From the NCBI RefSeq assembly GCF_900111455.1, contig NZ_FOIE01000009.1, forward strand, positions 62,001-126,000: a stretch of 64,000 nucleotides of DNA. Reading direction: 5' to 3'. This DNA comes from Geodermatophilus poikilotrophus (GTDB taxonomy: Bacteria; Actinomycetota; Actinomycetes; Mycobacteriales; Geodermatophilaceae). Position 1 is the first letter of the stretch, and every line of letters starts with the position of its first letter. The notes under the pieces were generated by a model. It was not told the DNA's origin. It saw nothing but the letters and a program-made list of their open reading frames with translations, and did no database searches. Below are positions 6,935-57,062 of this stretch, in pieces. A program made the translations under genes and the position numbers.

Positions 6935-7867
6935 GTGAGCGTCACCGTCGTCGGCAGCCTCAACGAGGACGTGCTGGTCCGCGTGCACCGCCTGCCCGGC
7001 CGCGGCGAGACCGTCGTCGGCCGCGGGACCGTGCTGGCGCCCGGCGGCAAGGGCGCGAACCAGGCCGCGGCCGCCGGGCGGCTCGTCGGCGGGGTGGCGA
7101 TGGTCGGCCGGGTCGGCGACGACCCGGCCGCCGACCGCCAGCTGGCGGCGTTGACCGCTGCAGGGGTCGACGTCACGGCCGTGGCGCGGACGCCGGGGGC
7201 GCTCACCGGCAGCGCGACCATCCCGGTCGAGGACGGGAGCGGTGAGAACCTGATCGTCGTCGTCCCCGGTGCGAACGCCGAGCTGCGACCGGGCGACGTC
7301 GACGTCGCGGCGGTGCGCGACGCGCGGGTGGTGCTGCTGCAGCTGGAGGTGCCGCTGCAGACCGTGCAGGCGGCGACCGCGGTGGCCGCGGGCACCGTCG
7401 TCCTCACCCCCGCGCCGCCGCAGCCGCTGGCGGCGGACCTGCTCGCGCGGGTCGACGTCCTGGTGCCCAACGAGCACGAGCTGCTGCAGCTGGCCGAGGC
7501 GGCCCCCGGCGACCGGGCACCCGGCGAGCTGGCGGCGCTGGCGCGCAGCCTGACGGGTGGCACGGTGGTGGTCACCCTCGGCGGGCGCGGCGCGCTGCTG
7601 GTGCCGGACGACGGCCCGGCGCTGCTTCAGCCTCCGCTCGCGGTGCGGCCCGTCGACACCACCGGCGCCGGCGACGCCTTCTGCGGGGCGCTCGCGGTCG
7701 CCCTCGCCGCCGGCACGGCACCGGCCGAGGCGGTGGCGACGGCGGTCACGGCGGCTGCGCTGTCGACGACCGGACCCGGCGCCCGGGGCGCACTGCCCGA
7801 CGCGGCAGCGGTCGCCGCGGCCCGGTCCGGGCTGCCGCCCGCCGTCCCGGCGGACCAGGGCGGTTGA
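6935..7867 (+). CDS. ribokinase (PfkB family)
   Basis: A 310-residue PfkB carbohydrate kinase. The first signature is seen as APGGKGANQAAAAGRL near residue 35, and the second as RPVDTTGAGDAFCGALAVAL, where Asp is the catalytic base and GAGD forms the anion hole. NEHELLQL near 170 and the ribokinase-like N-terminus VVGSLNEDVLVRVHRLPGRGET support ribose or a related pentose as substrate. The GTG start fits a leaderless transcript: TAGAGC at 6922-6927 ends 7 bases before it. No ribose transporter is adjacent, so the sugar may come from nucleoside turnover. Confidence 0.87.
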   Translation: MSVTVVGSLNEDVLVRVHRLPGRGETVVGRGTVLAPGGKGANQAAAAGRLVGGVAMVGRVGDDPAADRQLAALTAAGVDVTAVARTPGALTGSATIPVEDGSGENLIVVVPGANAELRPGDVDVAAVRDARVVLLQLEVPLQTVQAATAVAAGTVVLTPAPPQPLAADLLARVDVLVPNEHELLQLAEAAPGDRAPGELAALARSLTGGTVVVTLGGRGALLVPDDGPALLQPPLAVRPVDTTGAGDAFCGALAVALAAGTAPAEAVATAVTAAALSTTGPGARGALPDAAAVAAARSGLPPAVPADQGG

Positions 7868-7887
7868 CCCGGCTGCCCGCCGGGCAC
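7863..7887 (+). promoter_or_regulatory. SigB/SigF-like stress promoter before a small acidic gene
   Basis: GTTG-N15-GGGCAC, ending 35 bases before the GTG start. It matches the general stress sigma pattern GTTT-N14-16-GGGTA loosely and recurs before other small genes in the window. Confidence 0.45.
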
Positions 7888-7922
7888 AGCCTCGGCCAGC
7901 CGACGATCGAGGAGGCAGTCCC

Positions 7923-8069
7923 GTGAGCGAACCCGACCAGCCCGCGCACACCACCCAACCCGCCGAGGGCGGGGACCCGCCCGATGAGCAGCCGGGGGGA
8001 CAGACGCCGCACCCCGACCAGCCCGCCGAGGGCGGCGACGTACCGGCGGACGGCGCGGACACCCCCTGA
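7923..8069 (+). CDS. small acidic Pro/Gly-rich protein, unknown
   Basis: A 48-residue protein with no hydrophobic segment, rich in Pro, Asp, Glu and Gly. It contains an internal duplication of the unit QPAEGGD (residues 12-18 and 33-39, each followed by a Pro-rich stretch), so it looks intrinsically disordered. The GTG start has a good AGGAGG site 7 bases upstream, the main argument that it is real. A stress-type promoter box lies upstream. I do not recognise a family; homologues are likely confined to close relatives. Confidence 0.6.
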   Translation: MSEPDQPAHTTQPAEGGDPPDEQPGGQTPHPDQPAEGGDVPADGADTP

Positions 8070-8185
8070 CCCGAGCCGGGAGCGCGGGCCGGGCGGCGTG
8101 TCCGGCCCGCGCAGCCGGGGCCCGACGGCCACCGAGAGTGACGCATCTCTCCGTGATGTCGGCTCAACTCACCGTTGCGGGGTCT

Positions 8186-8210
8186 GTTTCGCGACCGGTC
8201 GCGCGGGGGA
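8186..8210 (+). promoter_or_regulatory. SigB/SigF-like stress promoter candidate
   Basis: GTTT-N15-GGGGGA lies immediately before the small gene at 8221. The -35 half matches the stress consensus exactly; the -10 half is poor. Transcription would begin a few bases before the ATG. Confidence 0.4.
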
Positions 8211-8220
8211 CGCTGGGGCC

Positions 8221-8361
8221 ATGGAGGAGACCCACGACCAGCCCCGTGTAGGTACCGAGACCTCTGAGGAGCGTGCGGCCGACGAGTCGCAGGCCCGGCA
8301 GACCTCGACCGCGCCCCTGGCCCGCCTGCTGGCCAACCCGCGCCGGACCCGCAGGGCCTGA
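8221..8361 (+). CDS. small hydrophilic protein, unknown
   Basis: A 46-residue protein, acidic in the first half (MEETHDQPRVGTETSEERAADE) and basic at the end (LLANPRRTRRA). There is no membrane segment or recognised domain. No good ribosome site precedes the ATG; the GTTT-N15-GGGGGA promoter candidate would make it nearly leaderless. A hairpin repeat starts 4 bases after its stop, as after several other small genes here, which supports a real transcription unit. Confidence 0.5.
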   Translation: MEETHDQPRVGTETSEERAADESQARQTSTAPLARLLANPRRTRRA

Positions 8362-8364
8362 GGG

Positions 8365-8419
8365 AGGACCCCTGCCCCCCACCGCTGGCAGGCTCGCGGT
8401 GGGGCCCGGCAGGGGGGCC
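8365..8419. repeat. 3'-end hairpin repeat, copy 2a (TGCC type)
   Basis: Inverted repeat with arms GGACCCCTGCCCCCCACC and GGGCCCGGCAGGGGGGCC around the apex GCAGGCTCGCGG. It begins 4 bases after the stop codon of the small gene and is followed 19 bases later by a second copy. Confidence 0.65.
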
Positions 8420-8437
8420 GCCGTCCTCACGACTCGC

Positions 8438-8490
8438 CGGCCCCGTCCTCCCCATCCCTCGGCAGGTTCGGGTGGGCCCGGGACGGGGCC
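8438..8490. repeat. 3'-end hairpin repeat, copy 2b (GTCC type)
   Basis: Inverted repeat with arms GGCCCCGTCCTCCCC and GGGACGGGGCC and apex TCGGCAGGTTCGGG. Tandem to copy 2a but of the other arm subtype, so the pair was not made by simple duplication of one unit. Little else is seen between here and the TetR gene at 8640. Confidence 0.6.
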
Positions 8491-8639
8491 CCCCGAGGTC
8501 ACGGATCGTCACACCCGCCCCACCGGTCCCCCGGGTCCCGGTCAGCCCGGGAGTACCTCGTCACTCACCGCAACCACCTGTCGGTCCTCCCCGGCGTGCC
8601 GTGGACTGCTCCGTCACGCACTCGGGCAGCATCCCCGGC

Positions 8640-9263
8640 GTGACCGCAGCCGCCATCCCCCTCGCCGCCGACGACGCCTCGGCCCCCGTCCGCCGGAGCC
8701 GGGCCGAGCGGCAGGCCATCGTCCTGGACACCGCCGAGCGGCTGTTCGCGACCCGCAGCTCGCGCAGCGTCGGCATGGACGAGCTGGTCCGCGAGACCGG
8801 GCTGGGCAAGATGACCGTCTACCGGCTGTTCAAGAGCAAGGACGACCTGGTCGGCGCCTACCTCGCCCGCAAGGCGGCCACCGTGCTGGCCCGCATCGAC
8901 GCCGAGCTCGCGCGCCTCGAGGGCGACCCCCGGGCGGCGCTGCTGTCGGTCGTCGACACCGTGGAGGCCGACGTCACGCGGGCCGGCTTCCGCGGCTGCC
9001 CGTTCACCAACGTCAGCAGCGAGTACGACGACCCGCAGCACCCCGCGCGCAGCGCCGCCGCCGACTACAAGTTCGAGCTGCACGCCCGGCTGGAGCGCCT
9101 CGCCGAGCAGGTCGCCCCGGGCGCCGGCGAGGACCTCGCCGCGCAGGTGCACCTGATCATCGACGGCATGTACCTCTCCGGCGGGCTGCTGGGCCCCGAC
9201 GGCCCCGCCTCGCACGGCCGCGAGCTGGCCGAGCGGCTCGTCGACACCGCCGTCACCCGCTGA
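8640..9263 (+). CDS. TetR/AcrR-family transcriptional regulator
   Basis: A 207-residue TetR-type repressor. The helix-turn-helix spans about residues 20-65, including RQAIVLDTAERLFATRSSRSVGMDELVRETGLGKMTVYRLFKSKDDLVGAYL. A C-terminal ligand domain with GFRGCPFTNVSSEYDDPQHP, also found in TetR proteins of the YxaF/LmrA type, follows. GTG 8640 was chosen because homologous sequence starts about 15 residues later; GTG 8601 would add 13 residues. No obvious target gene is adjacent, so it may regulate itself or distant genes. Confidence 0.85.
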   Translation: MTAAAIPLAADDASAPVRRSRAERQAIVLDTAERLFATRSSRSVGMDELVRETGLGKMTVYRLFKSKDDLVGAYLARKAATVLARIDAELARLEGDPRAALLSVVDTVEADVTRAGFRGCPFTNVSSEYDDPQHPARSAAADYKFELHARLERLAEQVAPGAGEDLAAQVHLIIDGMYLSGGLLGPDGPASHGRELAERLVDTAVTR

Positions 9264-9300
9264 GCCTGCGGCGCCGTACCGGGCACCCCAGGATGGGCCG

Positions 9301-9726
9301 GTGAGCACCGACCGCAGCCGGCCCGACCTCGACGACACCACCGTGGAGGGCCTCGGCAAGCTCTCCGAGGCCCTCGAGACGATCGAGCAGGCGCGCGGCC
9401 AGCTCTACGGCTTCCACCAGCACTCCGGCAAGGCCGACCTGCTGCTCCAGGACGCCGTCGAGCTGCTCCGCGAGGCCGGCCACACCCAGCTCGCCGACGA
9501 CCTCGACCGCGACCTCGTCGGCCGCAACGTCATCGCCGACCGCTGGACCTTCCAGATCGTCGAGGACTACGACGCCACCTACTGGTCGGTCTTCCGCGCC
9601 TTCGACGAGCGCGCGCGCACCGAGCTGGCCGACGGCGACCGGCACGTCCTCGAGGCGCGGATGAAGCAGCGCGAGCGCACGAAGGGCCACCCGCACCACG
9701 AGGCGGGCCCGGTCCTGCAGGAGTAG
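9301..9726 (+). CDS. conserved hypothetical protein, helical
   Basis: A 141-residue soluble protein, mostly alpha-helical by eye, with LGKLSEALETIEQARGQLYGFHQHSGKADLLLQDAVELLREAGH at 18-61 and DRWTFQIVEDYDATYWSVFRAFDERARTEL in the middle. I recognise it as a conserved actinobacterial family but cannot name a function. The GTG start sits 7 bases after CAGGAT (9289-9294), consistent with a leaderless transcript. It follows the TetR gene by 37 bases. Confidence 0.72.
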   Translation: MSTDRSRPDLDDTTVEGLGKLSEALETIEQARGQLYGFHQHSGKADLLLQDAVELLREAGHTQLADDLDRDLVGRNVIADRWTFQIVEDYDATYWSVFRAFDERARTELADGDRHVLEARMKQRERTKGHPHHEAGPVLQE

Positions 9727-9731
9727 GGGAC

Positions 9732-9756
9732 GTGGCCCGGCGGGCAGACCGGGCAG
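9732..9756 (+). promoter_or_regulatory. SigB/SigF-like promoter candidate (weak)
   Basis: GTGG-N15-GGGCAG upstream of the small gene at 9805. The -35 half departs from GTTT, so this is the weakest member of the set. Confidence 0.3.
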
Positions 9757-9804
9757 CACGCTCCTGGAGTCGCCGTCCGGAGGACGCCGACGCACACTCG
9801 GGCC

Positions 9805-9969
9805 ATGACCATGCCGGAGCCCGACGAGCCGCGCGACGTCCAGCCCCTCGGCGGCGAGGTCGCCCCGCCCGGCGACCCGGACTCCCAGGGCGGCACCCCC
9901 GGTCCGGCCGACGGGGTCGCGGGCCCGAGCTACCCGCCGGCCGGGACGGAGCCCGACGCGCACGGCTGA
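9805..9969 (+). CDS. small Pro/Asp/Gly-rich protein, unknown
   Basis: A 54-residue acidic, disordered protein starting MTMPEPDEPRDVQPLGGEV and ending PAGTEPDAHG. It belongs compositionally with the other tiny acidic proteins at 7923, 10542, 10793 and 56761. A CGGAGGACG stretch about 20 bases upstream is only a poor ribosome site, so the start is supported mostly by coding-like codon use and by analogy. The LapA gene follows 37 bases later. Confidence 0.5.
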   Translation: MTMPEPDEPRDVQPLGGEVAPPGDPDSQGGTPGPADGVAGPSYPPAGTEPDAHG

Positions 9970-10006
9970 CCGTGCGCGGAGCAGCGGCGGGCACCAGACT
10001 CGCACC

Positions 10007-10369
10007 GTGACCACCCCCGGCTCCGACCCCCTGCGCACCCCGACCGGCTCGACCGGCACACCCGGGACGACCACGGGTCCGGCCACCACCGGCCCGGCCA
10101 CCACCGGCAGGAAGGCGACGCCCGAGCGTCACCCCGTCCGCAACGCCGGCCGCACCGCCGGCCGGACGCTCGCCCTGGCGCTGCTGCTGTTCGTCACCGT
10201 GCTGCTCGTGCTGTTCGTCGTCTACAACACCCAGACCGTCGAGATCAGCCTGGTCTTCGCCGACGTGCAGGCCCCGCTGGTGCTGGCCCTGGTCATCGCC
10301 GCGGCGCTCGGCGGCCTGCTGGTCGGGCTGGCCGGCCTCGTGCTGCGCGCCCGCCGCCGCAGCAGCTGA
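10007..10369 (+). CDS. LapA (DUF1049) domain membrane protein
   Basis: A 120-residue protein with a Thr/Gly/Pro-rich N-terminal tail containing repeated TTGPA units, then two membrane helices typical of LapA/DUF1049: LALALLLFVTVLLVLFVVYNTQTVEISLVF and APLVLALVIAAALGGLLVGLAGLVL. The NTQTVEISLVF link between helices is the family hallmark. In E. coli the related LapA/YciS works with LapB in envelope assembly; in actinobacteria the role is unknown. It stands alone after a small gene and before a GC-rich hairpin at about 10378-10412. Confidence 0.85.
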   Translation: MTTPGSDPLRTPTGSTGTPGTTTGPATTGPATTGRKATPERHPVRNAGRTAGRTLALALLLFVTVLLVLFVVYNTQTVEISLVFADVQAPLVLALVIAAALGGLLVGLAGLVLRARRRSS

Positions 10370-10480
10370 GCGGTCACCTCCCCGCCCCGGCGTGGGCCGG
10401 ACCGGGGAGGACGGCGGCCGGACGGGGCCGTCGGGCCCCTGCAGGAGGCCGACCGCGCGTCACCGCGGCAGCCGCCGGTC

Positions 10481-10505
10481 GTTTCAGGGCGACGACGGCG
10501 GGCAT
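10481..10505 (+). promoter_or_regulatory. SigB/SigF-like stress promoter
   Basis: GTTT-N15-GGGCAT, 37 bases before the GTG at 10542. It differs at one -10 base from the mycobacterial SigF consensus GTTT-N15-GGGTAT and is the best match in the window. Confidence 0.55.
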
Positions 10506-10541
10506 GGCCCGGGGGACAGCGCCGTCGGACAGGAGGCTCCC

Positions 10542-10793
10542 GTGAGCGACCCCCAGGGCAGCGACCGGATCCAGCAGGACATCCCGACCGCGTCGGGCAC
10601 CGGCGACAACAGCAGCACCGGGTCCGGCTTCGACGACGTCCCCCTCACCGCCGACGAGGCGATCGAGCGGGACGCCGCCGCGGGCGACGACCTGCCGGCC
10701 CGCGCCGACTCCGACGTCGCCCGGGCCCGTACGGACGGCGCGTCCGGCGAGGTCTCGGGACCGACTCCCCGATCCGGAGGAAGGGACACCTGA
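10542..10793 (+). CDS. small acidic protein, unknown (operon with next gene)
   Basis: An 83-residue hydrophilic protein (SDPQGSDRIQQDIPTASGTGDNSSTGSGFDDVPLTADEAIERDAAAGDDLP...). It is rich in Asp, Ser, Gly and Thr, with no membrane segment, and is probably disordered. The GTG start has an AGGAGG site 5 bases upstream. The stop overlaps the next start as TGATG, so the two are translationally coupled. The motif VPLTADEAIERDAAAGDDLP resembles VALTTDEDAQRDDGLIRPG in the neighbour, suggesting the two genes are related by duplication. Confidence 0.65.
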   Translation: MSDPQGSDRIQQDIPTASGTGDNSSTGSGFDDVPLTADEAIERDAAAGDDLPARADSDVARARTDGASGEVSGPTPRSGGRDT

Positions 10794-10987
10794 TGAGCAA
10801 CCCCGACGACACCGGCTACCGGGATTCCCCGGACACCACCGACGGGCCGACGAACGCCAACATGGTCGACGGCGTCCCCGGTGAGGACCGTTCGGACGGC
10901 GGCGAGCGCGACGAGGTCGCCCTGACCACCGATGAGGACGCCCAGCGCGACGACGGCCTGATCCGCCCCGGCAACCTCCCGGACTAG
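10793..10987 (+). CDS. small acidic protein, unknown (coupled to preceding gene)
   Basis: A 64-residue acidic protein starting MSNPDDTGYRDSPDTTDGPTNANMVDGVPGEDRSD and ending DGLIRPGNLPD. Its ATG overlaps the previous stop codon. Its C-terminal (V)ALTTDEDAQRDD motif parallels the partner's LTADEAIERDA motif. Nothing suggests an enzyme. A hairpin repeat follows immediately, ending the two-gene unit that the stress-type promoter starts. Confidence 0.62.
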   Translation: MSNPDDTGYRDSPDTTDGPTNANMVDGVPGEDRSDGGERDEVALTTDEDAQRDDGLIRPGNLPD

Positions 10988-10988
10988 C

Positions 10989-11041
10989 AGGACCCCCTGC
11001 CCCCACCGCTCGCCAGTCAGCGGTGGGTCCTGCAGGGGGCC
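10989..11041. repeat. 3'-end hairpin repeat, copy 3 (TGCC type)
   Basis: Inverted repeat with arms GGACCCCCTGCCCCCACCGC and GCGGTGGGTCCTGCAGGGGG, apex TCGCCAGTCA. It fills the space between the small gene and the convergent response regulator and probably terminates both. Confidence 0.65.
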
Positions 11042-11043
11042 GT

Positions 11044-11649
11044 TCAGATCCAGCCGTGCCGGCGGGCCGCCTCGACGGCGGCGTGCCGGTTGCGCGCGCC
11101 GAGCTTCACCGCCGCGGCCGACAGGTGGTTGCGCACCGTCCCCGGGGACAGGTGGGCACGGGCCGCGATCTCCTCGACCGGCGCACCGCCGGCCGCCAGC
11201 TCCAGGACGTCCGCCTCCCGCGGGGTCAGCGGACTGTCCCCGGCGCTGATCGCCTCCGCGGCGAGCTCCGGGTCCACGTACCGGCCCCCGCGGTGCACGG
11301 TGCGGACGACGTCGGTGAGCACCGGCGCGCTCACGGTCTTGGGCAGGAACCCGCGCACGCCGGCCTCGAGCGCGCGCTTGAGGTGCCCGGCGCGGCCGTG
11401 CCCGGTGACGATCACGACCGCGCAGCCGGGCAGCACGGTGGCCAGCTCGCCGGCGACCGAGATGCCGTCGCGGTCGGGCATCTGCAGGTCCAGGACGGCG
11501 ACGTCCGGGGTGTGCGCCCGCGCCATCGCCAGCGCCTCCGCGCCGGAGGCGGCCTGGGCCACGACCGCGAGGTCCTCCTCCAGCGCGAGCAGCGCCGCGA
11601 GGGCGGAGCGGATCAGGTTCTCGTCGTCGGCCAGCAGCACCCGGATCAC
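11044..11649 (-). CDS. NarL/DesR-type response regulator
   Basis: A 201-residue LuxR-type regulator: receiver with ADDENLIRSALAALLALEEDL, phosphoacceptor Asp in VAVLDLQMPDRDG and FLPKTVSAPVL, then a helix-turn-helix with LTPREADVLELAAGGAPVEEIAARAHLSPGTVRNHLSAAAVKLG. It matches the DesR/LiaR-like regulators that pair with DesK-type kinases. The GTG start overlaps the kinase stop (GTGA), so the two are translationally coupled at the end of a four-gene operon with an ABC exporter. It probably activates that operon. Confidence 0.88.
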   Translation of the reverse strand: MIRVLLADDENLIRSALAALLALEEDLAVVAQAASGAEALAMARAHTPDVAVLDLQMPDRDGISVAGELATVLPGCAVVIVTGHGRAGHLKRALEAGVRGFLPKTVSAPVLTDVVRTVHRGGRYVDPELAAEAISAGDSPLTPREADVLELAAGGAPVEEIAARAHLSPGTVRNHLSAAAVKLGARNRHAAVEAARRHGWI

Positions 11650-12848
11650 GCCGGCACCCCCACCGGGACGGTCGCGGCGAGGACGAACCGGTCGCCGTCC
11701 GGCCCCGCCGACAGCCCACCGCCGGCCGCCGCCAGCCGCTCGGCGAGGCCGGTGAGCCCGTTGCCCCAGGTCGTCCCCGTGCCGGGGGCGCCGTCGTTGG
11801 CCACCCGCAGCTCCGCGTCTCCGCCGACCGCACGCAGCTCGACGCTGCACCAGCTCGCCCGGCTGTGCCGCAGCACGTTGGTCACCGCCTCGCGCACCAC
11901 CCAGCCCAGCGCCGCCTGCACCTGCTCGGGCAGCGCCACGGCCTCCTCCTCGCCGGTCACCGTGACGCCCACCCCGGCCGCACGGAGCACCGACCGGGCG
12001 CCGGCCAGCTCGCCGGGCAGGTCGGTGCGCCGGTAACCGCGGACGACGTCGCGCACCTCCCGCAGCGACTCCTCGGCGACCCGGCTGATGTCGGCGAGCT
12101 CCTCGGCCGCGCCACCCCTCCCCCGCCGGACCAGCTCGGCGGCCAGCTGGCTCTTCACCGCGATGGCCGAGAGGTTGCGGCCCATCACGTCGTGCAGGTC
12201 GCGGGCGAAGCGCAGGCGCTCCTCGGCGACGGCGAGCTGCGCCTGCACGCCGCGGCTGCGCTCCATCTCCAAGACCACGTCGAGGATCCAGACGCTGAAG
12301 CGGAAGGCCGTGACGAAGAAGCCGACCGCCACGCCGATCGAGGCGCCGACGACGACGGCGGCGGCCGGTGGACCGCCCTCGGCGTACGCCACCGCGCCGG
12401 CCAGCACACCGGTGACCGCGGCACCGGCGACCAGCGGCCGGGTCGGGACGGTCACCGACAGCGCCAGCAGCACCGCGGCGCCCACCAGGCCGGCCACGAA
12501 CGGTGCCGCGGGCGCCGGCCCCGCTGCCGTGGCGGCCAGCGCCGCCAGGACGGTGACCAGGCCGGCGACGAGGGCGACCAGCAGGGCCGGCCGGTCGGGG
12601 CCCGCGCTGCGGTCGCAGAACCCGCGCCGGGTGAGCAGGAGGCAGGCCGCCGTCGTGACCACCGAGGAGCCGAGCAGCACCGGCGGCTGCCACGTGGAGG
12701 CCGCCACCCAGTTCGGCGCCACCGCGAAGAGCAGCAGGACCGGGACGAACACCAGCGTCGAGTAGTACGAGGAGCGGGTGTAGAGGTCGATGCGCTGCGG
12801 GTCGGTACGACTGCTCCACCAGCGCGCGACGGTCGGCACGGCGCCCAT
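11646..12848 (-). CDS. DesK-type membrane sensor histidine kinase
   Basis: A kinase of about 400 residues. The N-terminal half has about six membrane helices (for example STLVFVPVLLLFAVAP, LVALVAGLVTVLAALAATAA, VVVGASIGVAVGFFVTAFRF). A HisKA_3 segment follows with phosphoacceptor His in ERLRFARDLHDVMGRNLSAIAVK, then an HATPase domain (AVTNVLRHSRA, TWGNGLTGLAERL). The absence of an extracellular domain suggests membrane-intrinsic sensing, as in DesK or bacitracin-type sensors. The ATG is 32 bases after the permease stop. It probably senses the exporter's substrate or membrane state and phosphorylates the coupled regulator. Confidence 0.85.
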   Translation of the reverse strand: MGAVPTVARWWSSRTDPQRIDLYTRSSYYSTLVFVPVLLLFAVAPNWVAASTWQPPVLLGSSVVTTAACLLLTRRGFCDRSAGPDRPALLVALVAGLVTVLAALAATAAGPAPAAPFVAGLVGAAVLLALSVTVPTRPLVAGAAVTGVLAGAVAYAEGGPPAAAVVVGASIGVAVGFFVTAFRFSVWILDVVLEMERSRGVQAQLAVAEERLRFARDLHDVMGRNLSAIAVKSQLAAELVRRGRGGAAEELADISRVAEESLREVRDVVRGYRRTDLPGELAGARSVLRAAGVGVTVTGEEEAVALPEQVQAALGWVVREAVTNVLRHSRASWCSVELRAVGGDAELRVANDGAPGTGTTWGNGLTGLAERLAAAGGGLSAGPDGDRFVLAATVPVGVPA

Positions 12849-12880
12849 GCTGCCGTACCGACCGCCGCTCGCCGGGCGGG

Positions 12881-13681: not shown

Positions 13682-13706
13682 GGGGACTCCTGGAGGGGTG
13701 GGGAGG

Positions 13707-31267: not shown

Positions 31268-31735
31268 TCACTGCTGGTCCGGCCGCGGGACGTCGCCGCG
31301 CCAGGCGCCGGTCTCGGTGCCGCGGCTCTCGATGAACTCCTTGAACCGCTTGGCGTCGGCCTTGACCTGGCGGTCGTCGAAGCCGAGCGCCGCGCCGGCC
31401 TTCTCCACGATGCCGGTCGGCTCCCAGTCGATCTGGATCATCACGCGGGTCTTGGTGTCGTCGAGGCGGTGGAAGGTGACCACGCCGGCGTGCTTGGCGT
31501 CGCCGCTGGTGCTGGTCCAGGCCACCCGCTCCTCGGGGTGCTGCTCGGTGATCTCCGCGTCGAACTCCCGCTTGACGCCGTCGATGTTGGTCACCCAGTG
31601 GGTGCGCGTCTCGTCGATCTGGGTGATCCGCTCGACGCCACCCATGAACTGCGGGAAGGACTCGAACTGCGTCCACTGGTCGTAGGCGACCCGGATCGGG
31701 ACGTCGACGTCGACGGATTGCTGCACGCTGGCCAC
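31268..31735 (-). CDS. SRPBCC (START-like) family protein
   Basis: A 155-residue cyclase/dehydrase-type SRPBCC protein. It has VQQSVDVDVPIRVAYDQWTQFESFPQFMGGVERITQIDETRTHW at the N-terminus, then HPEERVAWTSTSGDAKHAGVVTFHRLDD and MIQIDWEPTGIVEKAGAALGFDDRQVKADAKRFKEFIESR. This subfamily is common in actinobacteria and cyanobacteria and is thought to bind hydrophobic ligands; no enzyme activity is assigned. The start is GTG. A stress-type promoter candidate (GTGT-N16-GGGTAG) lies upstream, in line with the stress-protein neighbourhood. Confidence 0.82.
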   Translation of the reverse strand: MASVQQSVDVDVPIRVAYDQWTQFESFPQFMGGVERITQIDETRTHWVTNIDGVKREFDAEITEQHPEERVAWTSTSGDAKHAGVVTFHRLDDTKTRVMIQIDWEPTGIVEKAGAALGFDDRQVKADAKRFKEFIESRGTETGAWRGDVPRPDQQ

Positions 31736-31774: not shown

Positions 31775-31800
31775 CTACCCGGCGTCCCCGCGCAGGACAC
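31775..31800 (-). promoter_or_regulatory. SigB/SigF-like promoter before the SRPBCC gene
   Basis: On the minus strand GTGT-N16-GGGTAG lies 40 bases before the GTG start. The -10 half matches GGGTA; the spacer is one base longer than in the other cases. Confidence 0.4.
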
Positions 31801-38319: not shown

Positions 38320-38344
38320 GTGTACCCGGCCGTTCGACGGGGGT
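38320..38344 (+). promoter_or_regulatory. SigB/SigF-like promoter before a membrane protein
   Basis: GTGT-N15-GGGGGT, 11 bases before the ATG at 38356. It belongs to the recurrent stress-type promoter set; the -35 half is GTGT rather than GTTT. Confidence 0.4.
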
Positions 38345-38355
38345 AGACCGGGCGG

Positions 38356-38874
38356 ATGGCGAAGCGCACCCCGCTGGGGACCATCGGCAAGGGACGGCGC
38401 GGCATCAGCGTGGCGGGTTGGGCCCTGCGCGGCGCGGCGGCCGGCGCGGCGGGCAGCACCGCGCTCAACGCCGTCACCTACCTCGACATGACCGTCCGCG
38501 GCCGCCCGACGAGCTCCACCCCCGAGCAGACCGTCGAGAAGCTGGCCGAGAAGGCGCACGTGCCGATCCCGGGGGACGGCGACACGCGGCAGAACCGCAT
38601 CCAGGGGCTGGGCCCGATCACCGGGCTGGTGGCCGGCGTGGGGGTCGGGGTCGTCGTCGGGCTGGTGCGCGCGGCCGGCTACCGGTCGCAGCCACTGGTC
38701 GGCACGCTGCTGACCACGCTGGGTGTGCTGGTCGTCGCCAACGGCCCGATGACCGTCCTCGGCATCACCGACCCGCGCACCTGGTCGGCGACCGACTGGG
38801 CCAGCGACATCGTCCCGCACCTGGCCTACGGCGCGGTCGTGAAGACGACGATGGACGCCTTCGACCGCCGGTGA
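38356..38874 (+). CDS. conserved membrane protein, unknown
   Basis: A 172-residue protein with a basic N-terminus (MAKRTPLGTIGKGRRG), a Gly/Ala-rich helix (GWALRGAAAGAAGSTALNAVTYLDM), a hydrophilic stretch GRPTSSTPEQTVEKLAEKAHVPIPGDGDTRQNRIQGLGPI and further helices (TGLVAGVGVGVVVGLVRAAGY, VGTLLTTLGVLVVANGPMTVLG). Similar proteins are frequent in actinobacteria; no function is known to me. A stress-type promoter candidate abuts it. Confidence 0.72.
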   Translation: MAKRTPLGTIGKGRRGISVAGWALRGAAAGAAGSTALNAVTYLDMTVRGRPTSSTPEQTVEKLAEKAHVPIPGDGDTRQNRIQGLGPITGLVAGVGVGVVVGLVRAAGYRSQPLVGTLLTTLGVLVVANGPMTVLGITDPRTWSATDWASDIVPHLAYGAVVKTTMDAFDRR

Positions 38875-42715: not shown

Positions 42716-42740
42716 GTTCACCGGCGGCGCGGCGGGGCAC
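42716..42740 (+). promoter_or_regulatory. SigB/SigF-like promoter before a small lipoprotein
   Basis: GTTC-N15-GGGCAC, 9 bases before the ATG at 42750. A good match to the recurrent pattern. Confidence 0.45.
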
Positions 42741-42749: not shown

Positions 42750-42962
42750 ATGGATCTCAAGCGACCCCTCGTCGTGCTGGCCGCCGTCGCCGCCCTGGCC
42801 GGGTGCAGCGCCAGCACGGAGACCGGCGGCAACACCGATCTGGATCGGGGGACCACCGAGTGCGCCGCCGCCGAGGCCGGGTCGACCGACGAGGAGGCGT
42901 GCCAGGACACCGAGCAGGACAACGAGCAGCAGACCGACGAGGAGGACGACGGCGAGGGCTGA
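42750..42962 (+). CDS. small acidic lipoprotein
   Basis: A 70-residue lipoprotein: signal MDLKRPLVVLAAVAALAGC with lipobox LAGC (Cys19 lipidated), then a mature part extremely rich in Thr, Glu, Asp and Gln (for example DTEQDNEQQTDEEDDGEG) with a Cys pair (ECAAA, EACQD). It would be anchored on the outer face of the membrane. It lies between the divergent NlpC/P60 unit and an FAD oxidoreductase. A stress-type promoter candidate sits directly before it. No family recognised. Confidence 0.68.
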   Translation: MDLKRPLVVLAAVAALAGCSASTETGGNTDLDRGTTECAAAEAGSTDEEACQDTEQDNEQQTDEEDDGEG

Positions 42963-51043: not shown

Positions 51044-51052
51044 GGTGTCCGG

Positions 51053-51117
51053 CCGTGATCATCGGCGGGTGGTCGCCCGACACGCTGCGAGCGACCACCG
51101 CACGCCGATGATCACGG
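51053..51117. terminator. 24-bp stem hairpin between convergent genes
   Basis: A two-part stem: CCGTGATCATCGGCG pairs with CGCCGATGATCACGG and GGTGGTCGC with GCGACCACC, with a 3-base bulge and 14-base loop. The stop codon of the convergent acVLRF1 gene (51112-51114) lies inside one arm. A probable bidirectional terminator. Confidence 0.75.
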
Positions 51118-51807: not shown

Positions 51808-52232
51808 GCGCCGTCCCGGGTGGTGGGCAGCCCGGCCGCGGCCCAGGCCCGGTAGCCGCCGACCACGTCGGTGGCGCGGTGCAGGCCCAGTGCGCGCAGC
51901 GAGTCGGCGGCGAGGCTGGAGGCGTAGCCCTCGTTGCAGAGCACGATCACCTCGACGTCGTGCCCGGTGGCCTCGGGCAGCCGCGCGTCGCTGGCCGGGT
52001 CCAGGCGCCACTCGAGCACGTTGCGCTCGACGACCACGGCACCGGGGACCTCGCCGTCGGCCTCGCGCTGGGCGACCGGGCGGGTGTCGACGAGCAGGGC
52101 GCCGTCGGCCATCCGCGCCGCGGCCTCGGCCGGCTGGAGGCGGTGGAGGCGCCCACGCGTCTCCGCGAGCACCTCGTCGATGGAGCGTGGGGCGGGCGGG
52201 GTGCCGCCGGGCTCCGTCCTCGGCCCGGTCAC
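51804..52232 (-). CDS. rhodanese-like domain protein
   Basis: A 142-residue protein with a single rhodanese domain: GALLVDTRPVAQREADGEVPGAVVVERNVLEWRLDP, active-site loop VIVLCNEGYASSLAADSLRALGL with Cys nucleophile (CNEGYAS), and ATDVVGGYRAWAAAGLP. It probably carries persulfide sulfur in the cytosol. Both ends overlap neighbours by 4 bases (GTGA with the MFS stop, CTGA with acVLRF1), so the three genes are translationally coupled. Confidence 0.88.
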   Translation of the reverse strand: MTGPRTEPGGTPPAPRSIDEVLAETRGRLHRLQPAEAAARMADGALLVDTRPVAQREADGEVPGAVVVERNVLEWRLDPASDARLPEATGHDVEVIVLCNEGYASSLAADSLRALGLHRATDVVGGYRAWAAAGLPTTRDGA

Positions 52233-53443
52233 CGGGCCATCGCCGGCTCGGCGGCGTGCTCGGCCGGCACGTGCAGCAACCGCTGGGTGGCCGCGACGAC
52301 CACCGTGGCGACGGCGGCGGCGAGGGTGGCCACCCAGAACGCGGAGCTGGCCCCGGTGGTGTCCACCAGCTTGCCGGCGGCCGAGGAGCCGAGGGCGACC
52401 CCGAGACCCAGGGCGGTGCCGATCCAGGTGAACGCCTCGGTGGTGGCCGAGCGCGGGACCAGCACCTCGGCGAGGGTGAACGAGCTGATTAACGACGGGG
52501 AGACGGCGAGCCCCGCGACCACCACGAACGGGATCAGCAGCCAGACGTCGCGCACCAGCGCCAGCGGCAGGCTCAGCACCGTCAGCACGGCGAGGACGAC
52601 GACCAGCCGGTGGCGCAGTGGGTGCCGCCAGTGCACGCTCCCCCAGCCGATGCCGCTGGCCATGGACCCGAGCGCCAGCGCCGCGATGAGCACGCCGGAC
52701 AGCGCCATCGCGCCGGCCTCGTCGGCGAAGGCGACGAGCGCGATCTCCAGGCTGCCGAGGATCGCGCCGACGGCGGCCCCGACGACGAACAGCACCTGGA
52801 GTCCGGGCGTGCGGATGGCCGACGGGCCGCTGCGGGCGGCGTGCCCGTGCGGTGGCGGCTCGGTGCGGCCCTGGGCGGCGAACAGCAGGCTGCCGACGAC
52901 GGCGAGGACGAAGGCGGTGACCACCCCGGAGGTGGCGTGCCCGGTCGTGGACAGGAAGGTGACCAGCACCGGACCGACGATGAAGACGAACTCGTCGACC
53001 ACCGACTCCATCGCCAGCGCCGCCGGCAGCCGGTGCGTGCCGCGGAGGAGGTGGGTCCAGCGGACCCGGATCATCGACGCGACCGGGGGGATGCAGGCGC
53101 CGGCCAGCCCGGCCGAGGCGAACAGGATCCAGCGCGGCCAGTCCTCCTTGACCGCGGGCAGGAACACGCACCCCGCGGCCACGAAGACGGCGAGCACCGG
53201 CAGCAGCGTGCGGCGCTGGCCGTGGGTGTCCGCCCACCGTCCCAGCAGCGGACCGGAGATCGCCGTGGTGACGGCCCCGGTCGCGGCGACCGCCCCGCCC
53301 AGCCCGTAGCTGCCCGTCTCGGAGGCGATGAGCAGGACCGAGCCGAGCCCGACCATCGACAGCGGCAACCGCCCGACGAAGGCGGCCAGCACCATCGGCA
53401 GTGCGTGGGGCGTGCGGAGCACGTGCAGGTACGGGTTGAGCAC
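52229..53443 (-). CDS. MFS transporter
   Basis: A 404-residue 12-helix major facilitator. The first half has LLGRWADTHGQRRTLLPVLAVFVAAGCVF (the loop 2-3 motif is GRWADTHGQRR) and FIVGPVLVTFLSTTGH. An amphipathic loop with GRTEPPPHGHAARS separates the two halves. The resemblance is to small drug exporters. The substrate is unknown; coupling to a rhodanese and a ribosome-rescue protein gives no clear clue. The start is GTG. Confidence 0.83.
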   Translation of the reverse strand: MLNPYLHVLRTPHALPMVLAAFVGRLPLSMVGLGSVLLIASETGSYGLGGAVAATGAVTTAISGPLLGRWADTHGQRRTLLPVLAVFVAAGCVFLPAVKEDWPRWILFASAGLAGACIPPVASMIRVRWTHLLRGTHRLPAALAMESVVDEFVFIVGPVLVTFLSTTGHATSGVVTAFVLAVVGSLLFAAQGRTEPPPHGHAARSGPSAIRTPGLQVLFVVGAAVGAILGSLEIALVAFADEAGAMALSGVLIAALALGSMASGIGWGSVHWRHPLRHRLVVVLAVLTVLSLPLALVRDVWLLIPFVVVAGLAVSPSLISSFTLAEVLVPRSATTEAFTWIGTALGLGVALGSSAAGKLVDTTGASSAFWVATLAAAVATVVVAATQRLLHVPAEHAAEPAMAR

Positions 53444-53560
53444 GGATGGCGACCTGTCGTCTCAGGTGAGGGGCTCCGGTACGACGGACCACGCTAACCG
53501 ACCGGAGCAGCGGCGGCCCGGCGGCGAGGAGCCGGTCGCGTGCCCCGCCTCCGGAACGGC

Positions 53561-53604
53561 GCAGGGCCCCGCACCGGTCGCCGTCGACCGGTGCGGGGCC
53601 CTGC
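53561..53604. terminator. perfect 20-bp hairpin after pckG
   Basis: GCAGGGCCCCGCACCGGTCG pairs exactly with its inverse complement at 53585-53604 around the 4-base loop CCGT. It lies 34 bases beyond the pckG stop on the minus strand and about 120 bases upstream of the MFS start, and prevents read-through. Confidence 0.85.
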
Positions 53605-53637
53605 GGGACCGACTCCGGGGAGCCGGCGCGGCCGGCT

Positions 53638-55452
53638 CTAGGCGAGCCGGTGCTCCAGGATGGCGAGCTCGTCCCACATGGTGCTGGGGAGCTTGTCGCC
53701 GAACTTCTCGAACCACTCGGTGATCTGCGGGATCTCGGCGCGCCACTCGTCCTTGTCGACGGCGAGCGCCTTCTCCACCTGCTCGCGGGTCAGGTCCAGC
53801 CCGGAGACGTCCAGCGAGTCCGGCGTCGGCACGTGGCCGACCGCGGTCTCCTCGGCCGCCGCGGTGCCCTCGAGCCGCTCGACGACCCACTTGAGGACCC
53901 GGCTGTTCTCGCCGAAGCCCGGCCACAGGAAGCCGCCGTCCTCGTCGCGGCGGAACCAGTTCACGTAGAAGATCCGCGGCAGCTTGCTGGCGTCGTGGGC
54001 CTTTCCCGTCTCGACCCAGTGGCGGAAGTAGTCACCGGCGTTGTAGCCGATGAACGGCAGCATGGCGAACGGGTCCCGGCGGACGACGCCGACCGCACCG
54101 GTGGCGGCGGCGGTGGTCTCCGAGGACAGCGTCGCGCCCATGAAGACGCCGTGGTTCCAGTCCCGGGCCTCGCTGACCAGCGGGATGGTCGTCTTGCGGC
54201 GGCCGCCGAAGAGGATCGCCGAGATCGGCACGCCCTTCGGGTCGGTGTACTCCGGCGCCAGGATCGGGCACTGGGTGATCGGCGTGCAGAACCGGCTGTT
54301 CGGGTGGCTGGAGGGCTCGTCGCTGTCCGGCGTCCAGTCCCGGCCCTTCCAGTCGGTGAGGTGCGCCGGCGGCTCGTCGGTCATGCCCTCCCACCAGATG
54401 TCACCGTCGTCGGTGAGGGCGACGTTGGTGAAGACCGAGTTGCCCTTGTCGATCGTGCGCATCGCGTTGGGGTTGGTGTCCCAGCCGGTGCCGGGGGCGA
54501 CCCCGAAGAGGCCGAACTCGGGGTTGAGCGCGTAGAGCCGGCCGTCCTCGCCGAAGCGCATCCAGGCGATGTCGTCGCCGAGGGTCTCGACCCTCCAGCC
54601 CGGGATGGTCGGCTCGAGCATCGCCAGGTTGGTCTTGCCGCAGGCCGAGGGGAAGGCGGCGGCGATGTAGTAGGTCTTCTGCTGCGGGCTGGTCAGCTTG
54701 AGGATCAGCATGTGCTCGGCGAGCCAGCCCTCGTCGCGCGCCATGACCGAGGCGATGCGCAGGGAGTAGCACTTCTTCCCGAGCAGGGCGTTGCCGCCGT
54801 AGCCCGAGCCGTAGGACCAGATGGCCCGCTCCTCGGGGAAGTGCACGATGTACTTGGTGTCGCTGCAGGGCCACGGCACGTCCTGCTGGCCCTCGTCGAG
54901 CGGGGCGCCGAGGGAGTGCATCGCCGGCACGAACGGCCGGTCGGTGCCCATCGCCTGCAGGACGTGGCTGCCGATGCGGGCCATGACCCGCATCGAGACC
55001 ACGACGTACTCGGAGTCGGTCAGCTCGACGCCGAACATCGGGTTCTCGGCCTCGACCGGGCCCATGCAGAATGGGATGACGTACATCGTCCGGCCGCGCA
55101 TGCACCCCCGGTACAGCTCGGTCATGATCGACTTCATCTCGGCCGGGTCCATCCAGTTGTTGGTGGGACCGGCGTCGGCCTCGTCGACCGAGCAGATGAA
55201 GGTGCGGTCCTCGACGCGCGCGACGTCGCTGGGGTCCGAGGCGCACCAGAACGAGTTGGGCTTCGCGTCCAGGCGGGTGAAGGTGCCGGCGTCGACCAGC
55301 TGCTGGGTGAGCCGCTCCCACTCCTCGTCGCTGCCGTCGACCCACACGACCCGGTCCGGCGTCGTCAGCTCGGCCATCTCCCGCACCCAGGCGAGCAGCC
55401 GGGCGTGCGTGGTGGGGGCGTTCTCGATACCGGGGGTGGCCACTGAAGTCAC
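53638..55452 (-). CDS. pckG: phosphoenolpyruvate carboxykinase (GTP)
   Basis: A 604-residue GTP-dependent PEPCK of normal length. The PEPCK kinase P-loop is [14 protein letters not shown] with the reactive Cys, the metal/OAA region is [22 protein letters not shown], and [16 protein letters not shown] blocks appear as [28 protein letters not shown]. It turns oxaloacetate into PEP for gluconeogenesis. GTG 55452 has GGAG 6 bases before it. A GTTACA-N17-TAGGCT promoter lies about 120 bases upstream and a perfect hairpin follows. Confidence 0.96.
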
Positions 55453-55833
55453 GGCGTCTCCATCCTCTGGGCACACCGGGCGGGGACCCGCCGGCGCTGT
55501 ACTCGTCCTGCTCAGCTGTCGTCCGGGCCGCCGGGCGCCACGGGCGCCGGTGGGGTCCCGGGTCCGGACAGCCTAACGGTGCGGACGACCACTGTAACCG
55601 TGAGAGATGTTACGTATAAGACGTCTACCTCGCGGGCCGGAAGACCCTGGTGGGGCTGCCCGTCGACCCGGCCGCGCGGACCGTGCACCGGCCTCCGCGC
55701 CGACCGTGGGGCCGTCTCCCGCGGCCCGGCCGACCTGGGTCGCGGCAGCCCACGCGGTGGCGGGGCGACCCCGGCGTCGCCGTCCACCCCGCTCGGGGGG
55801 TCCGCAGCGCGGGGACGCCCTCCAGGCGCCGGG
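55453..55833. other. 381-base intergenic region
   Basis: The part next to pckG (55453-55630) holds its promoter and an unusually A/T-rich stretch (55590-55625) with TTACGTATAAG. The rest, toward the SRPBCC gene end, shows no supported gene; short ORFs are Arg/Pro-rich shadows. Confidence 0.6.
55570..55598 (-). promoter_or_regulatory. pckG promoter
   Basis: On the minus strand GTTACA-N17-TAGGCT, predicting a 5' leader of about 110 bases before the pckG GTG. Confidence 0.5.
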
Positions 55834-56361
55834 TCAGGAGCCGGTCGACATCCCGTAGACCGGCCCGGCGACCTCGGCGGCGAAGTCCTCCCAGTCCCGC
55901 GGGACGGGCCGCCCGCCGACCTCGGCGTCGAACTTGTCCAGGTACCAGTGCCAGCCGGCGGCGAAGTCGGCGACGTCCGCGTCAGGGGCGAACAGCTGGC
56001 GGAAGCGCAGGACCGACCGGTCCTCCTCGGCCCACAGGTCCAGCTCGACGGACCAGTCGGCCTGACCGACCCACTCGACGACCAGCCGGCGCGGCGGGTC
56101 GCACTCGGCGATGCGCACCGCCTCGCCGGCAGGCTCGTCCTCGTGGGTCATCGTGAAGGTGCCGGCGCCGCCGGGTGCACGCTCGCCGTCGTAGGTGCCG
56201 ATCCAGCGGGCCAGCCGGTCGGGCTCGGTGAGCGCCGACCACACGTCCTCGACCGGGTCCGGCCAGGAGCGGCGGAACTCCAGGCGCTGCCGGCCGTCGT
56301 CCTCGGTGCTGACGACACCACGGCGGGCCATCGCGTCGGACAGGGCGTCCTGCTGGGTCAT
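55834..56361 (-). CDS. SRPBCC family protein (AHSA1-like), coupled to ArsR
   Basis: A 175-residue AHSA1-type SRPBCC protein: LEFRRSWPDPVEDVWSALTEPDRLARWIGTYDGERAPGGAGTFTMTHEDE, CDPPRRLVVEWVGQADWSVELDLWAEEDRSVLRFRQLF and AGWHWYLDKFDAEVGGR. It should bind a hydrophobic ligand in a helix-grip pocket. The ATG overlaps the ArsR stop (ATGA). ArsR-SRPBCC pairs are a frequent actinobacterial module in which the regulator controls the pair itself. Confidence 0.87.
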   Translation of the reverse strand: MTQQDALSDAMARRGVVSTEDDGRQRLEFRRSWPDPVEDVWSALTEPDRLARWIGTYDGERAPGGAGTFTMTHEDEPAGEAVRIAECDPPRRLVVEWVGQADWSVELDLWAEEDRSVLRFRQLFAPDADVADFAAGWHWYLDKFDAEVGGRPVPRDWEDFAAEVAGPVYGMSTGS

Positions 56362-56687
56362 GGCGTCCCTCCACTCCTGCGGGCCCGTCGGCCGCGGGCC
56401 ATCTCGGTGTCCAGTGCGTCGAACCGCCGGGCCCACAGGTCGCGGTAGGGCTCCAGCCAGTCGTCGAGCTCCCGCAGCGGGCGCGGGTCGAGCACGTAGA
56501 GCCGCCGGCGTCCCTCGACCCGGCTGCGGACCAGCCCGGCCTCGCGCAGCACGCGGAGGTGCCGGCTGATCGCCGGCCGGCTCACCGGGAACCGCTCGGC
56601 GAGTTCCCCGGCGGCCAGTTCCCCCCGTGCCAGCAGGGCGACCAGCTCGCGCCGGGTCGGATCGGCGAGGGCCGCGAGCGCCTCCAC
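56358..56687 (-). CDS. ArsR/SmtB-family regulator
   Basis: A 109-residue winged-helix repressor: ALAALADPTRRELVALLARGELAAGELAERFPVSRPAISRHLRVLREAGLVRSRVEGRRRLYVLD. No metal-binding Cys cluster is seen, consistent with the metal-independent group that pairs with SRPBCC proteins. GTG 56687 is preferred since it places the perfect palindrome (56693-56716) in front of the gene; GTG 56705 would add 6 residues and lie inside the palindrome. Confidence 0.86.
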   Translation of the reverse strand: MEALAALADPTRRELVALLARGELAAGELAERFPVSRPAISRHLRVLREAGLVRSRVEGRRRLYVLDPRPLRELDDWLEPYRDLWARRFDALDTEMARGRRARRSGGTP

Positions 56688-56692
56688 CCAGT

Positions 56693-56716
56693 ATGCGTAA
56701 CACACGGGTTACGCAT
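56693..56716. promoter_or_regulatory. ArsR autoregulatory operator (9-bp perfect dyad)
   Basis: ATGCGTAAC-N6-GTTACGCAT, 6 bases before the preferred ArsR start. It is AT-richer than its surroundings and overlaps the expected promoter, typical of ArsR-family autorepression. Confidence 0.7.
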
Positions 56717-56726
56717 TCGGCCAGGG

Positions 56727-56751
56727 GTTGGCGCGCGACCCCGCCGGGAAC
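56727..56751 (+). promoter_or_regulatory. SigB/SigF-like stress promoter
   Basis: GTTG-N15-GGGAAC, ending 9 bases before the ATG at 56761. Member of the recurrent set. Confidence 0.4.
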
Positions 56752-56760
56752 CGGAGCCGC

Positions 56761-57024
56761 ATGACGGTCACCGACCCCGACGTCCCGGACCCGCTCAACG
56801 ACCCCCGCACCCTGCAGGCCGACCCCGGCGCGTACGGGCAGGGCGGGGACCTCGCCTCGACCGAGGACGACGCCGTGTCGACCGGCGCGGACGAACTGGC
56901 CGCGGACGACCTGACCGGCGACGACCCGACCGACGACGACCTGACCGCCGGTCGGAACGCGGCCGACGACGCCGGCGGTGGCGACGTGACCGGCGGCGCG
57001 TTCTCCGAGAGCCCGCGCGGCTGA
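56761..57024 (+). CDS. small very acidic protein, unknown
   Basis: An 87-residue Asp-rich protein (DPDVPDPLNDPRTLQADPGAYGQGGD, then ADDLTGDDPTDDDLTAGRNAADDAGGGDVTGGAF). It is highly negative with no hydrophobic core, so it is probably disordered. ATG 56761 is chosen as the first start past the promoter candidate. It is divergent from ArsR and followed 77 bases later by another small stress-type gene. Composition links it to the proteins at 7923-10987. Confidence 0.62.
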   Translation: MTVTDPDVPDPLNDPRTLQADPGAYGQGGDLASTEDDAVSTGADELAADDLTGDDPTDDDLTAGRNAADDAGGGDVTGGAFSESPRG

Positions 57025-57037
57025 GACGAGGCGGTCC

Positions 57038-57062
57038 GTTTCAGGAACCGCCGGCCGGGCAA
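57038..57062 (+). promoter_or_regulatory. SigB/SigF-like stress promoter
   Basis: GTTT-N15-GGGCAA, about 40 bases before the ATG at 57102. The -35 half is a perfect match; TTTCAGG follows the same way as at 10481. Confidence 0.5.

Follow-up and report, generated by a model that had tools for sequence, protein, structure and literature searches.

Eight conserved SigB/SigF-type promoters and their probable regulon in Geodermatophilus

The promoters considered here are eight sites of SigB/SigF type scattered through a 64,000-nucleotide (nt) stretch of the Geodermatophilus poikilotrophus genome (the window: contig NZ_FOIE01000009.1, positions 62,001 to 126,000, or G000:C18:62001-126000, G000 being the source genome of 4.83 Mb in 18 contigs; 73-77% GC); their closest described counterparts, taken from excerpts of the papers cited, belong to three other bacteria. 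For Bacillus subtilis SigB the consensus is quoted as GTTTAA-N12-14-GGGA/TAA/T (PMC8346170). In Streptomyces coelicolor, according to the same excerpt, promoters of the SigB homologues keep the GGG and the A of the -10 box behind a GTTT or GNNT -35 box; -10 variants include GGGCAC, GGGCAT, GGGCAA, and GGGAAC; and the sporulation-specific SigF, SigH, and SigN promoters have a more conserved GTTT (PMC8346170). Mycobacterium smegmatis SigF sites are given as GTTT-N15/16-GGGTA, with GTGT, GTTG, GTTC, GGGAA, and GGGCA variants, many lying 8-11 or 22-69 nt from the start codon and others more than 100 (PMC4694148); a role of this SigF under stress (oxidative, heat, and acid) and in stationary phase has been reported, together with 56 hypoxia-induced start sites that have a SigF -10 (PMC6448022); and, in the experiments excerpted, RsbW2 phosphorylated RsfB, but RsbW1 (in vitro) and RsbW3 did not (PMC7693655).

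We argue that the eight sites are very probably the promoters of the regulon of a single SigB/SigF-type sigma factor, a proposal that an initial annotation, made from the window alone, had put forward and that is strengthened here because the boxes are conserved, stand at fixed distances from gene starts, and resemble those of relatives, because each genome has one sigma gene of this type, and because the same boxes precede that sigma factor's own operon. A stress response of the regulon is a separate reading, predicted by analogy with relatives, to which we return below.

Conservation, spacing, and start geometry of the promoters

Our genus sample comprised 26 Geodermatophilus genomes including the source genome. 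The syntenic region was available from 16 congeners (20 kb only in one), or 17 sequences with the window. To 65 genes from our own caller we added two tiny open reading frames (ORFs; 7923 and 8221) from the initial annotation, for a window set of 67; genes are named by their start positions. The start of 42750 is also that annotation's choice, our caller preferring a GTG at 42774. Orthologues were placed by tblastn, and 120 nt upstream of each were scanned for the strict pattern G(TT[TGC]|TGT)-N14-17-GGGNA; congener-only counts omit the window copy, and other counts include it.

All eight main sites are present in the window sequence at the places given by the initial annotation, and GTT[TGC] or GTGT together with GGGNA is found at 8/8. 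Three have a GTTG or GTTC -35, which is one mismatch from GTTT and does not fit GNNT. The annotated spacing of 15, once 16, holds for the five N15 sites and is too narrow for two at N16 and one at N17 (in order 15, 16, 15, 16, 17, 15, 15, 15); likewise its -10 box of GGGCAN or a variant is exact as GGGCA at four sites, the others being GGGTA (two), GGGGA (one), and GGGAA (one), with a fourth base that is gene-specific. The strict pattern recurs upstream of 58-100% of congener orthologues across the eight genes (with the window counted and in gene order, 15/15, 9/9, 13/16, 15/16, 15/16, 8/13, 14/15, and 16/16), and exactly 8 of 62 orthologue groups (at least 8 sequences each, window counted) reach 60%. 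Of the remaining 58 genes for which congener orthologues exist, 47 lack a site altogether, and the highest are 50033 (4/6 congeners) and 6411 (4/13), whose copies in the window lack a site; other species may have 50033 as a ninth regulon gene, and both are possible cases of regulon turnover. On the reverse strand, 56358 scores 11/12, which is the site of 56761 viewed from the divergent gene, followed by 37234 (6/14) and 5985 (5/14, beside 6411), with all others at 2 or fewer. A weaker ninth case proposed before gene 9805 fails, the strict pattern being found upstream in 0/14 congeners; since conservation favors eight genes and not this one, the initial annotation had found every supported gene and one false one. 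By eye, many congeners have instead a GTCGCC...GCAGACT-like element upstream of 9805, and CAGGATG-like and GCAGACT-like elements lie near the starts of 9301 and 9805 in many congeners, which suggests leaderless housekeeping promoters.

Although the search pattern leaves the fourth -10 base open, six genes each keep a single letter there (C 15/15, G 9/9, C 13/13, T 15/15, T 15/15, and C 8/8); the other two vary (C 12, A 2; C 10, A 5, G 1). Box identity of 0.93-1.0 is largely imposed by the search pattern; spacer identity is 0.49-0.64. A strict coupling of spacer length with the fourth base was considered and dropped, as it is broken at other genes and in other genera. Housekeeping sigma promoters have the form TTGACA-N17-TANNNT. 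Inspected by eye only for such boxes, the -10 position is occupied by GGGNA at all eight sites, and the -35 region of 7923 includes TTGAC in some species and TTCGG or similar in others.

The promoters fall into two classes by the distance from the A of GGGNA to the start codon: 10-11 nt before an ATG in 8221, 38356, 42750, and 56761, and 34-48 nt (medians 37-40) in 7923, 10542, 31735, and 57102, with the exception of a single 10542 orthologue at 11 nt. As transcription from a sigma promoter begins some 6-9 nt past the -10 box, the class at 10-11 nt should be leaderless. With the window counted, Shine-Dalgarno-like sites occur in 62/63 leadered upstreams (15/15, 15/16, 16/16, and 16/16) vs 9/53 leaderless ones (3/9, 0/16, 0/13, and 6/15).

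The predicted leaderless promoters, all on the plus strand and all 10 nt from an ATG, begin with GTTT-N16-GGGGA at 8186..8210, kept in 8/8 of the congeners having the gene; it precedes 8221..8361, a hydrophilic protein of 46 amino acids (aa) and zero net charge, missed by our gene caller and matched by tblastn in 9/17 sequences (window included). By eye, a conserved GTGACGCATCTCTC-like block (window 8110-8150) lies some 80 nt before the gene in the orthologue upstreams. GTGT-N17-GGGTA at 38320..38345 (14/15 congeners) precedes 38356..38874, a basic and, by eye, probably membrane protein of 172 aa found in 26/26 genus genomes, the source genome included; GGGTA is seen by eye close to the ATG in all 26, and such a promoter likewise precedes a distant paralogue (31% identity) at G000:C18:153470. 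GTTC-N15-GGGCA at 42716..42739 (7/12 congeners), 34 nt from the alternative GTG 42774, precedes 42750..42962, an acidic putative lipoprotein of 70 aa (LPAM_1 at 18.3 bits, just below the cut-off of 20). GTTG-N15-GGGAA at 56727..56750 (13/14 congeners) precedes 56761..57024, an Asp-rich acidic protein of 87 aa. An inverted repeat, ATGCGTAAC...GTTACGCAT (window 56690-56730), lies directly upstream of this last box, between 56761 and 56358 (ArsR-like by eye), and recurs with variations in many congeners; it is a possible operator of the divergent 56358.

The predicted leadered promoters lie on the plus strand except that of 31735. GTTG-N15-GGGCA at 7863..7886 (36 nt to a GTG; 14/14 congeners) precedes 7923..8069, a very acidic, low-complexity protein of 48 aa, also missed by our gene caller and matched by tblastn in 15/17 sequences (window included). 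GTTT-N15-GGGCA(TG) at 10481..10504 (37 nt to a GTG; 12/15 congeners) precedes 10542..10793, an acidic protein of 83 aa, with whose gene an acidic 64-aa ORF overlapping its stop (10793-10987) is probably cotranscribed. Viewed by eye in 25 genomes, the -35 position of 10542 is GTTT in 19, GTGT in 1, and GCATG in 5, and GGGCATG is kept in nearly all; the orthologues in G008, G012, G014, and G015 have no GTTT and have GGGCATG twice, 22 bp apart, and that in G021 has GCATG alone at the -35 position. On the minus strand, GTGT-N16-GGGTA at 31776..31800 (40 nt to a GTG; 14/15 congeners) precedes 31268..31735, an SRPBCC or polyketide cyclase-like protein of 155 aa (PF03364 at 72.6 bits, cut-off 23.4). 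GTTT-N15-GGGCA at 57038..57061 (40 nt to an ATG; 15/15 congeners, with TGGCA instead in G021, which is outside this set) precedes 57102..57344, whose 80-aa product has a weak ferritin-like match (14 bits, below the cut-off of 24.5) and relatives in several actinobacterial families.

Controls against chance point the same way. When the spacer was varied over the 62 groups, GT[TG][TCG]-Nx-GGGNA reached 60% in 4, 2, and 1 groups at N15, N16, and N17, respectively, the remaining 27 spacers of the range 4-33 giving no such group; with a very loose GNNT box, single groups also did so at N20 and N29. Over 239 permutations of GTT[TGC] plus GGGNA the mean was 0.28 groups and 16 sequence matches, vs 6 groups and 91 matches for the real pair, or 8 and 121 once GTGT is included; 48 of the 239 gave at least one group, and the top three (6, 6, and 5) are near-copies overlapping the real sites. 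Beyond the window we sampled 60 stretches (1,176,091 bases, 1109 called genes), in which the pattern lies 9-12 or 30-50 nt before the start of 21 genes vs 3, 4, 6, 5, 5, 5, and 4 genes at seven control spacings, suggesting that 3-6 of the 21 are chance matches. Across the 26 genomes GTTT-N14-17-GGGYA gives 581 matches vs 179 for the reversed pattern, a count that retains some matches identical across several genomes, perhaps ribosomal RNA or other repeats. The canonical GTTT-N14-16-GGGTA does not serve as the main motif, occurring at 2 sites in the whole source genome (reversed, 0); GTTT-N15-GGGCA occurs at 9 (reversed, 2). Finally, the leaderless arrangement GTTT-N15-17-GGGYA-N10-11-ATG, which needs no gene calls, has 68 matches in the 26 whole genomes vs 3 when the pattern is reversed and 4 when the distance is shifted to 17-18; 11 of the 68 are by place 38356 orthologues, many further ones belong to DUF2630 genes and to one gene that is glycosyltransferase-like by eye, and of 30 loci translated one opens a spurious frame of 8 residues.

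Beyond the genus, we compared the best 80 of 336 loci related to 57102, 79 of them with enough upstream DNA; the named ones of highest identity are mostly from Geodermatophilus. Within this set strict sites occur at 48/79 loci (Geodermatophilus 18/19, Modestobacter 13/13, Blastococcus 8/26, others 9/21), vs 3 matches in the 79 loci at GTTT control spacings; a TGTGAC-type block is present at 20/26 Blastococcus loci, in many cases with GGGTA after it; and the fourth -10 base is C 8, A 9, G 1, and T 0 in Geodermatophilus, and T in 8/13, 11/15, and 13/16 of strict or relaxed sites elsewhere. The relaxed pattern GNNT-N14-18 matches 62/79 loci, which is weak evidence because 16 control spacings together give 88 matches.

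The sigma factor and its operon

The source genome has 28 Sigma70_r2 matches, three of which were scanned with NCBIfam and the rest viewed as translations (L035 and L039 held no sigma ORF). The protein encoded at G000:C7:863.2-864.3 kb (L014:1084-2163) matches SigBFG at 297.5 bits (cut-off 234.35), and its best NCBIfam model is a SigF subfamily, whose score of 333 bits falls short of the 372 that this model requires; WhiG (L022) and a FliA-like factor (L038) fall below the SigBFG cut-off. All 26 genomes have exactly one SigB/F/G-type match, at 517-532 bits with a runner-up at 95.4 bits or less. The factor (L014, L223-L248) has in 26/26 genomes an acidic and probably disordered N-terminal extension of variable length, 53-124 residues before the query part with 19-41% Asp+Glu.

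In all 26 genomes the sigma gene follows, with a 4-nt overlap, a gene for a protein of 165-169 aa. The product of this partner in the source genome (L014:590-1084) matches HATPase_c_2 at 36 bits (cut-off 27.4) and is, by position and domain, assigned as RsbW; the NCBIfam RsbW equivalog, scored on an incomplete frame of the protein, gives 20.5 vs 145. The N-box of a kinase-active RsbW contains Asn. The N-box here is DEACATL, with no Asn, in the 25/26 genomes where it was found, suggesting an anti-sigma factor that binds only. GTTT-N16/17-GGGTA stands within 230 nt upstream of the rsbW-sigF operon in 25/26 genomes, and therefore the sigma gene itself lies behind the motif.

Products, further members, and clustering

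Most of the products are small, as first annotated: six of the eight are under 90 aa, vs 5/59 other genes, one of the five clipped by the window end (Fisher p = 1.1e-4), or 4/6 when the two added ORFs are left out (p = 0.0024). Their description as acidic applies to five, with isoelectric points (pI) below 4.8 (one at 4.79) vs 11/59 other genes, and does not extend to 38356, which is basic (pI 10.4), or 8221, which is near neutral (pI 6.6). Only the SRPBCC protein (31735) exceeds a Pfam cut-off, and Pfam gave no match for 38356, 7923, 8221, 10542, or 56761. The label of orphan is nonetheless wrong at the level of the genus: tblastn finds orthologues of the eight genes in 9-16 of the 17 sequences (window included), and the named relatives of 10542 and 56761, among 120 of 523 and 120 of 983 matches, respectively, are from Geodermatophilus and Blastococcus. 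The products are taxonomically restricted rather than orphan.

Elsewhere in the genome, eight of the 21 genes from the sample, chosen by eye as stress-like, were searched against Pfam, as was L009 (below). Five of the eight matched a family, the families being OsmC, pyridoxamine oxidase-like, DUF2630, DUF5313, and CDGSH; the other 13 of the 21 include genes that look like ordinary metabolism. At L009 (G000:C18:60930), 1 kb to the left of the window, GTTT-N15-GGGCA precedes a membrane-like protein of 216 aa, and the site is also present in three readable congener stretches (G003, G008, and G014), 55-56 nt from the start in two. A second small cluster at G000:C13:386431-397469 pairs a DUF2630 gene with a glycosyltransferase-like one some 11 kb away; each has a leaderless SigF-type promoter, and such pairs lie 10-18 kb apart in many congeners. 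The window also contains a type III polyketide synthase-like gene (4170-5204; PF02797, PF00195).

The window has 8 sites vs 1.14 expected at the sampled-genome rate (Poisson 2.6e-5), a count that includes two ORFs and one start from the initial annotation, the genome sample being limited to genes from our caller; limited in the same way, the window count falls to 6 sites (P = 0.0012, or about 0.09 after multiplication by 75 windows). The rest of the contig has 3 sites in 136,091 bases, plus the L009 site in an unsampled 2 kb. Because the recount weakens P, and because the window was selected by a reader who had seen the sites, clustering is suggestive only.

Interpretation and comparison with known systems

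We infer the following scheme for SigF recognition, start sites, release from RsbW, stress induction, and protein functions. As long as conditions are non-inducing, SigF would stay bound to the RsbW-like protein; freed by a signal, it would read GTTT, GTGT, GTTG, or GTTC as the -35 and GGGNA as the -10 box; four promoters would start transcription at or beside the ATG and yield leaderless messenger RNAs, and four would yield short leaders with a Shine-Dalgarno site; and the presence of these boxes before the sigma operon itself, there with a longer leader, would make the response self-reinforcing. Most of the products are small hydrophilic proteins, the others being an SRPBCC protein, a membrane protein, and a putative lipoprotein; they would probably be protective under drying, osmotic, or oxidative stress.

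Several observations weigh against a single SigF regulon. The -35 box is variable, and two types of -10 box and spacer occur side by side; GTTT is missing from 10542, with GCATG in its place, in 5 of 25 species; the 42750 site is kept in only 7 of 12 congeners; the sites of the sigF operon, at 122-181 nt from the start of rsbW, belong to neither distance class, and that operon in G018 has no strict site, only a GTTTACC...GGGCTATAT variant outside the pattern; gene starts come from our own caller, from tblastn, and, for three genes, from the initial annotation; and neither the 68 leaderless matches nor the conservation counts are independent events, since the congeners are related and many matches are orthologues of a few genes. 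To these must be added that the loose pattern, taken without gene-start geometry, has 151 matches in 800 kb vs 116-186 at control spacings, so that the loose motif alone is weak evidence, much as the initial annotation had warned of a GC-rich background. This lack of overall enrichment, and the commonness of GGGNA at about 76% GC, are what one would expect if the eight sites were chance matches picked by eye; conservation and the spacing, permutation, and geometry controls nevertheless refute that explanation for the eight as a set, and we give it practically no credence except at 9805, for which it stands. It is conceivable, but in our view very improbable, that two regulators are at work, with SigF at the GGGTA sites (31735, 38356, and the sigF operon) and another sigma factor or an activator at GTTT/GTTG/GTTC-N15-GGGCA. 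The two types do differ in spacer and in the fourth base, which is constant within most genes, and the doubled GGGCATG seen by eye upstream of 10542 in four species could be a binding site. Each genome, however, has a single SigB/F/G-type sigma gene; the -10 box of 57102, among the best 80 of 336 loci, is GGGCA or GGGAA in Geodermatophilus and oftener GGGTA elsewhere, so that the two types interchange at one promoter; and the SigF/SigB-type promoters reported for relatives, in the excerpts consulted, include GGGCA and GGGAA (PMC8346170, PMC4694148).

A different kind of alternative accepts the SigF regulon and is compatible with the promoter assignment, and gives the regulon a developmental or stationary-phase role in place of stress. 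The more conserved GTTT of the S. coelicolor sporulation promoters, as excerpted (PMC8346170), is in its favor; against it are some sampled members matching OsmC, pyridoxamine oxidase-like, DUF2630, DUF5313, and CDGSH families, content typical of stress regulons, although these were picked by eye from 21 genes, and the M. smegmatis SigF, which in the excerpted account acts in oxidative, heat, and acid stress as well as in stationary phase (PMC6448022). We consider such a role unlikely, but still a serious contender. Geodermatophilus and its relatives tolerate drying and radiation. A bolder extension of the single-SigF reading would have the gene-specific fourth -10 base and spacer (N15 with C or A, N16 with G, N16-17 with T), together with the choice of a leaderless or leadered start, form a graded code that sets in what order, and by what mode of translation, small, family-specific, disordered protectants are made, many of them encoded in one chromosomal region, and these proteins would underlie that tolerance; we regard it as improbable in this full form.

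We wish to stress that a regulon of this type is known, and is new for Geodermatophilus as far as searched: among the papers listed by our searches of one open-licence library, no title or abstract opening describes a general stress regulon in the genus. One sigma factor, one motif, and precise start-site prediction yield a testable gene list, in which small proteins with no Pfam match gain a likely functional context; the promoter rule (10-11 nt for leaderless, about 34-48 nt for leadered starts) helps to find tiny genes missed by callers or to correct their starts; and the leaderless/leadered split and the gene-specific -10 bases are features worth testing.

Of the described systems, the B. 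subtilis SigB regulon was compared in box type only, which is shared (PMC8346170, as quoted there). The M. smegmatis SigF regulon shares GTTT, GTGT, GTTG, and GTTC boxes, spacers mostly of 14-17, and GGGTA, GGGCA, and GGGAA; in the part of its site table used here it also shares site groups at 8-11 and about 22-69 from the start codon, but differs in having many sites at more than 100 and a -10 that is commonly GGGTA, most promoters in the window having another fourth base (PMC4694148). RsbW partners are likewise shared, the M. smegmatis RsbW1 having, in the assay excerpted, no kinase activity on RsfB in vitro (PMC7693655); the acidic N-terminal extension of the Geodermatophilus sigma factor may be a further difference. 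With S. coelicolor the likeness lies in a near-invariant GGG and A, a looser fourth base, GTTT or GNNT, and similar spacers, and the difference in its nine SigB homologues as excerpted (PMC8346170) vs one per genome here, which makes the sigma assignment in Geodermatophilus simple.

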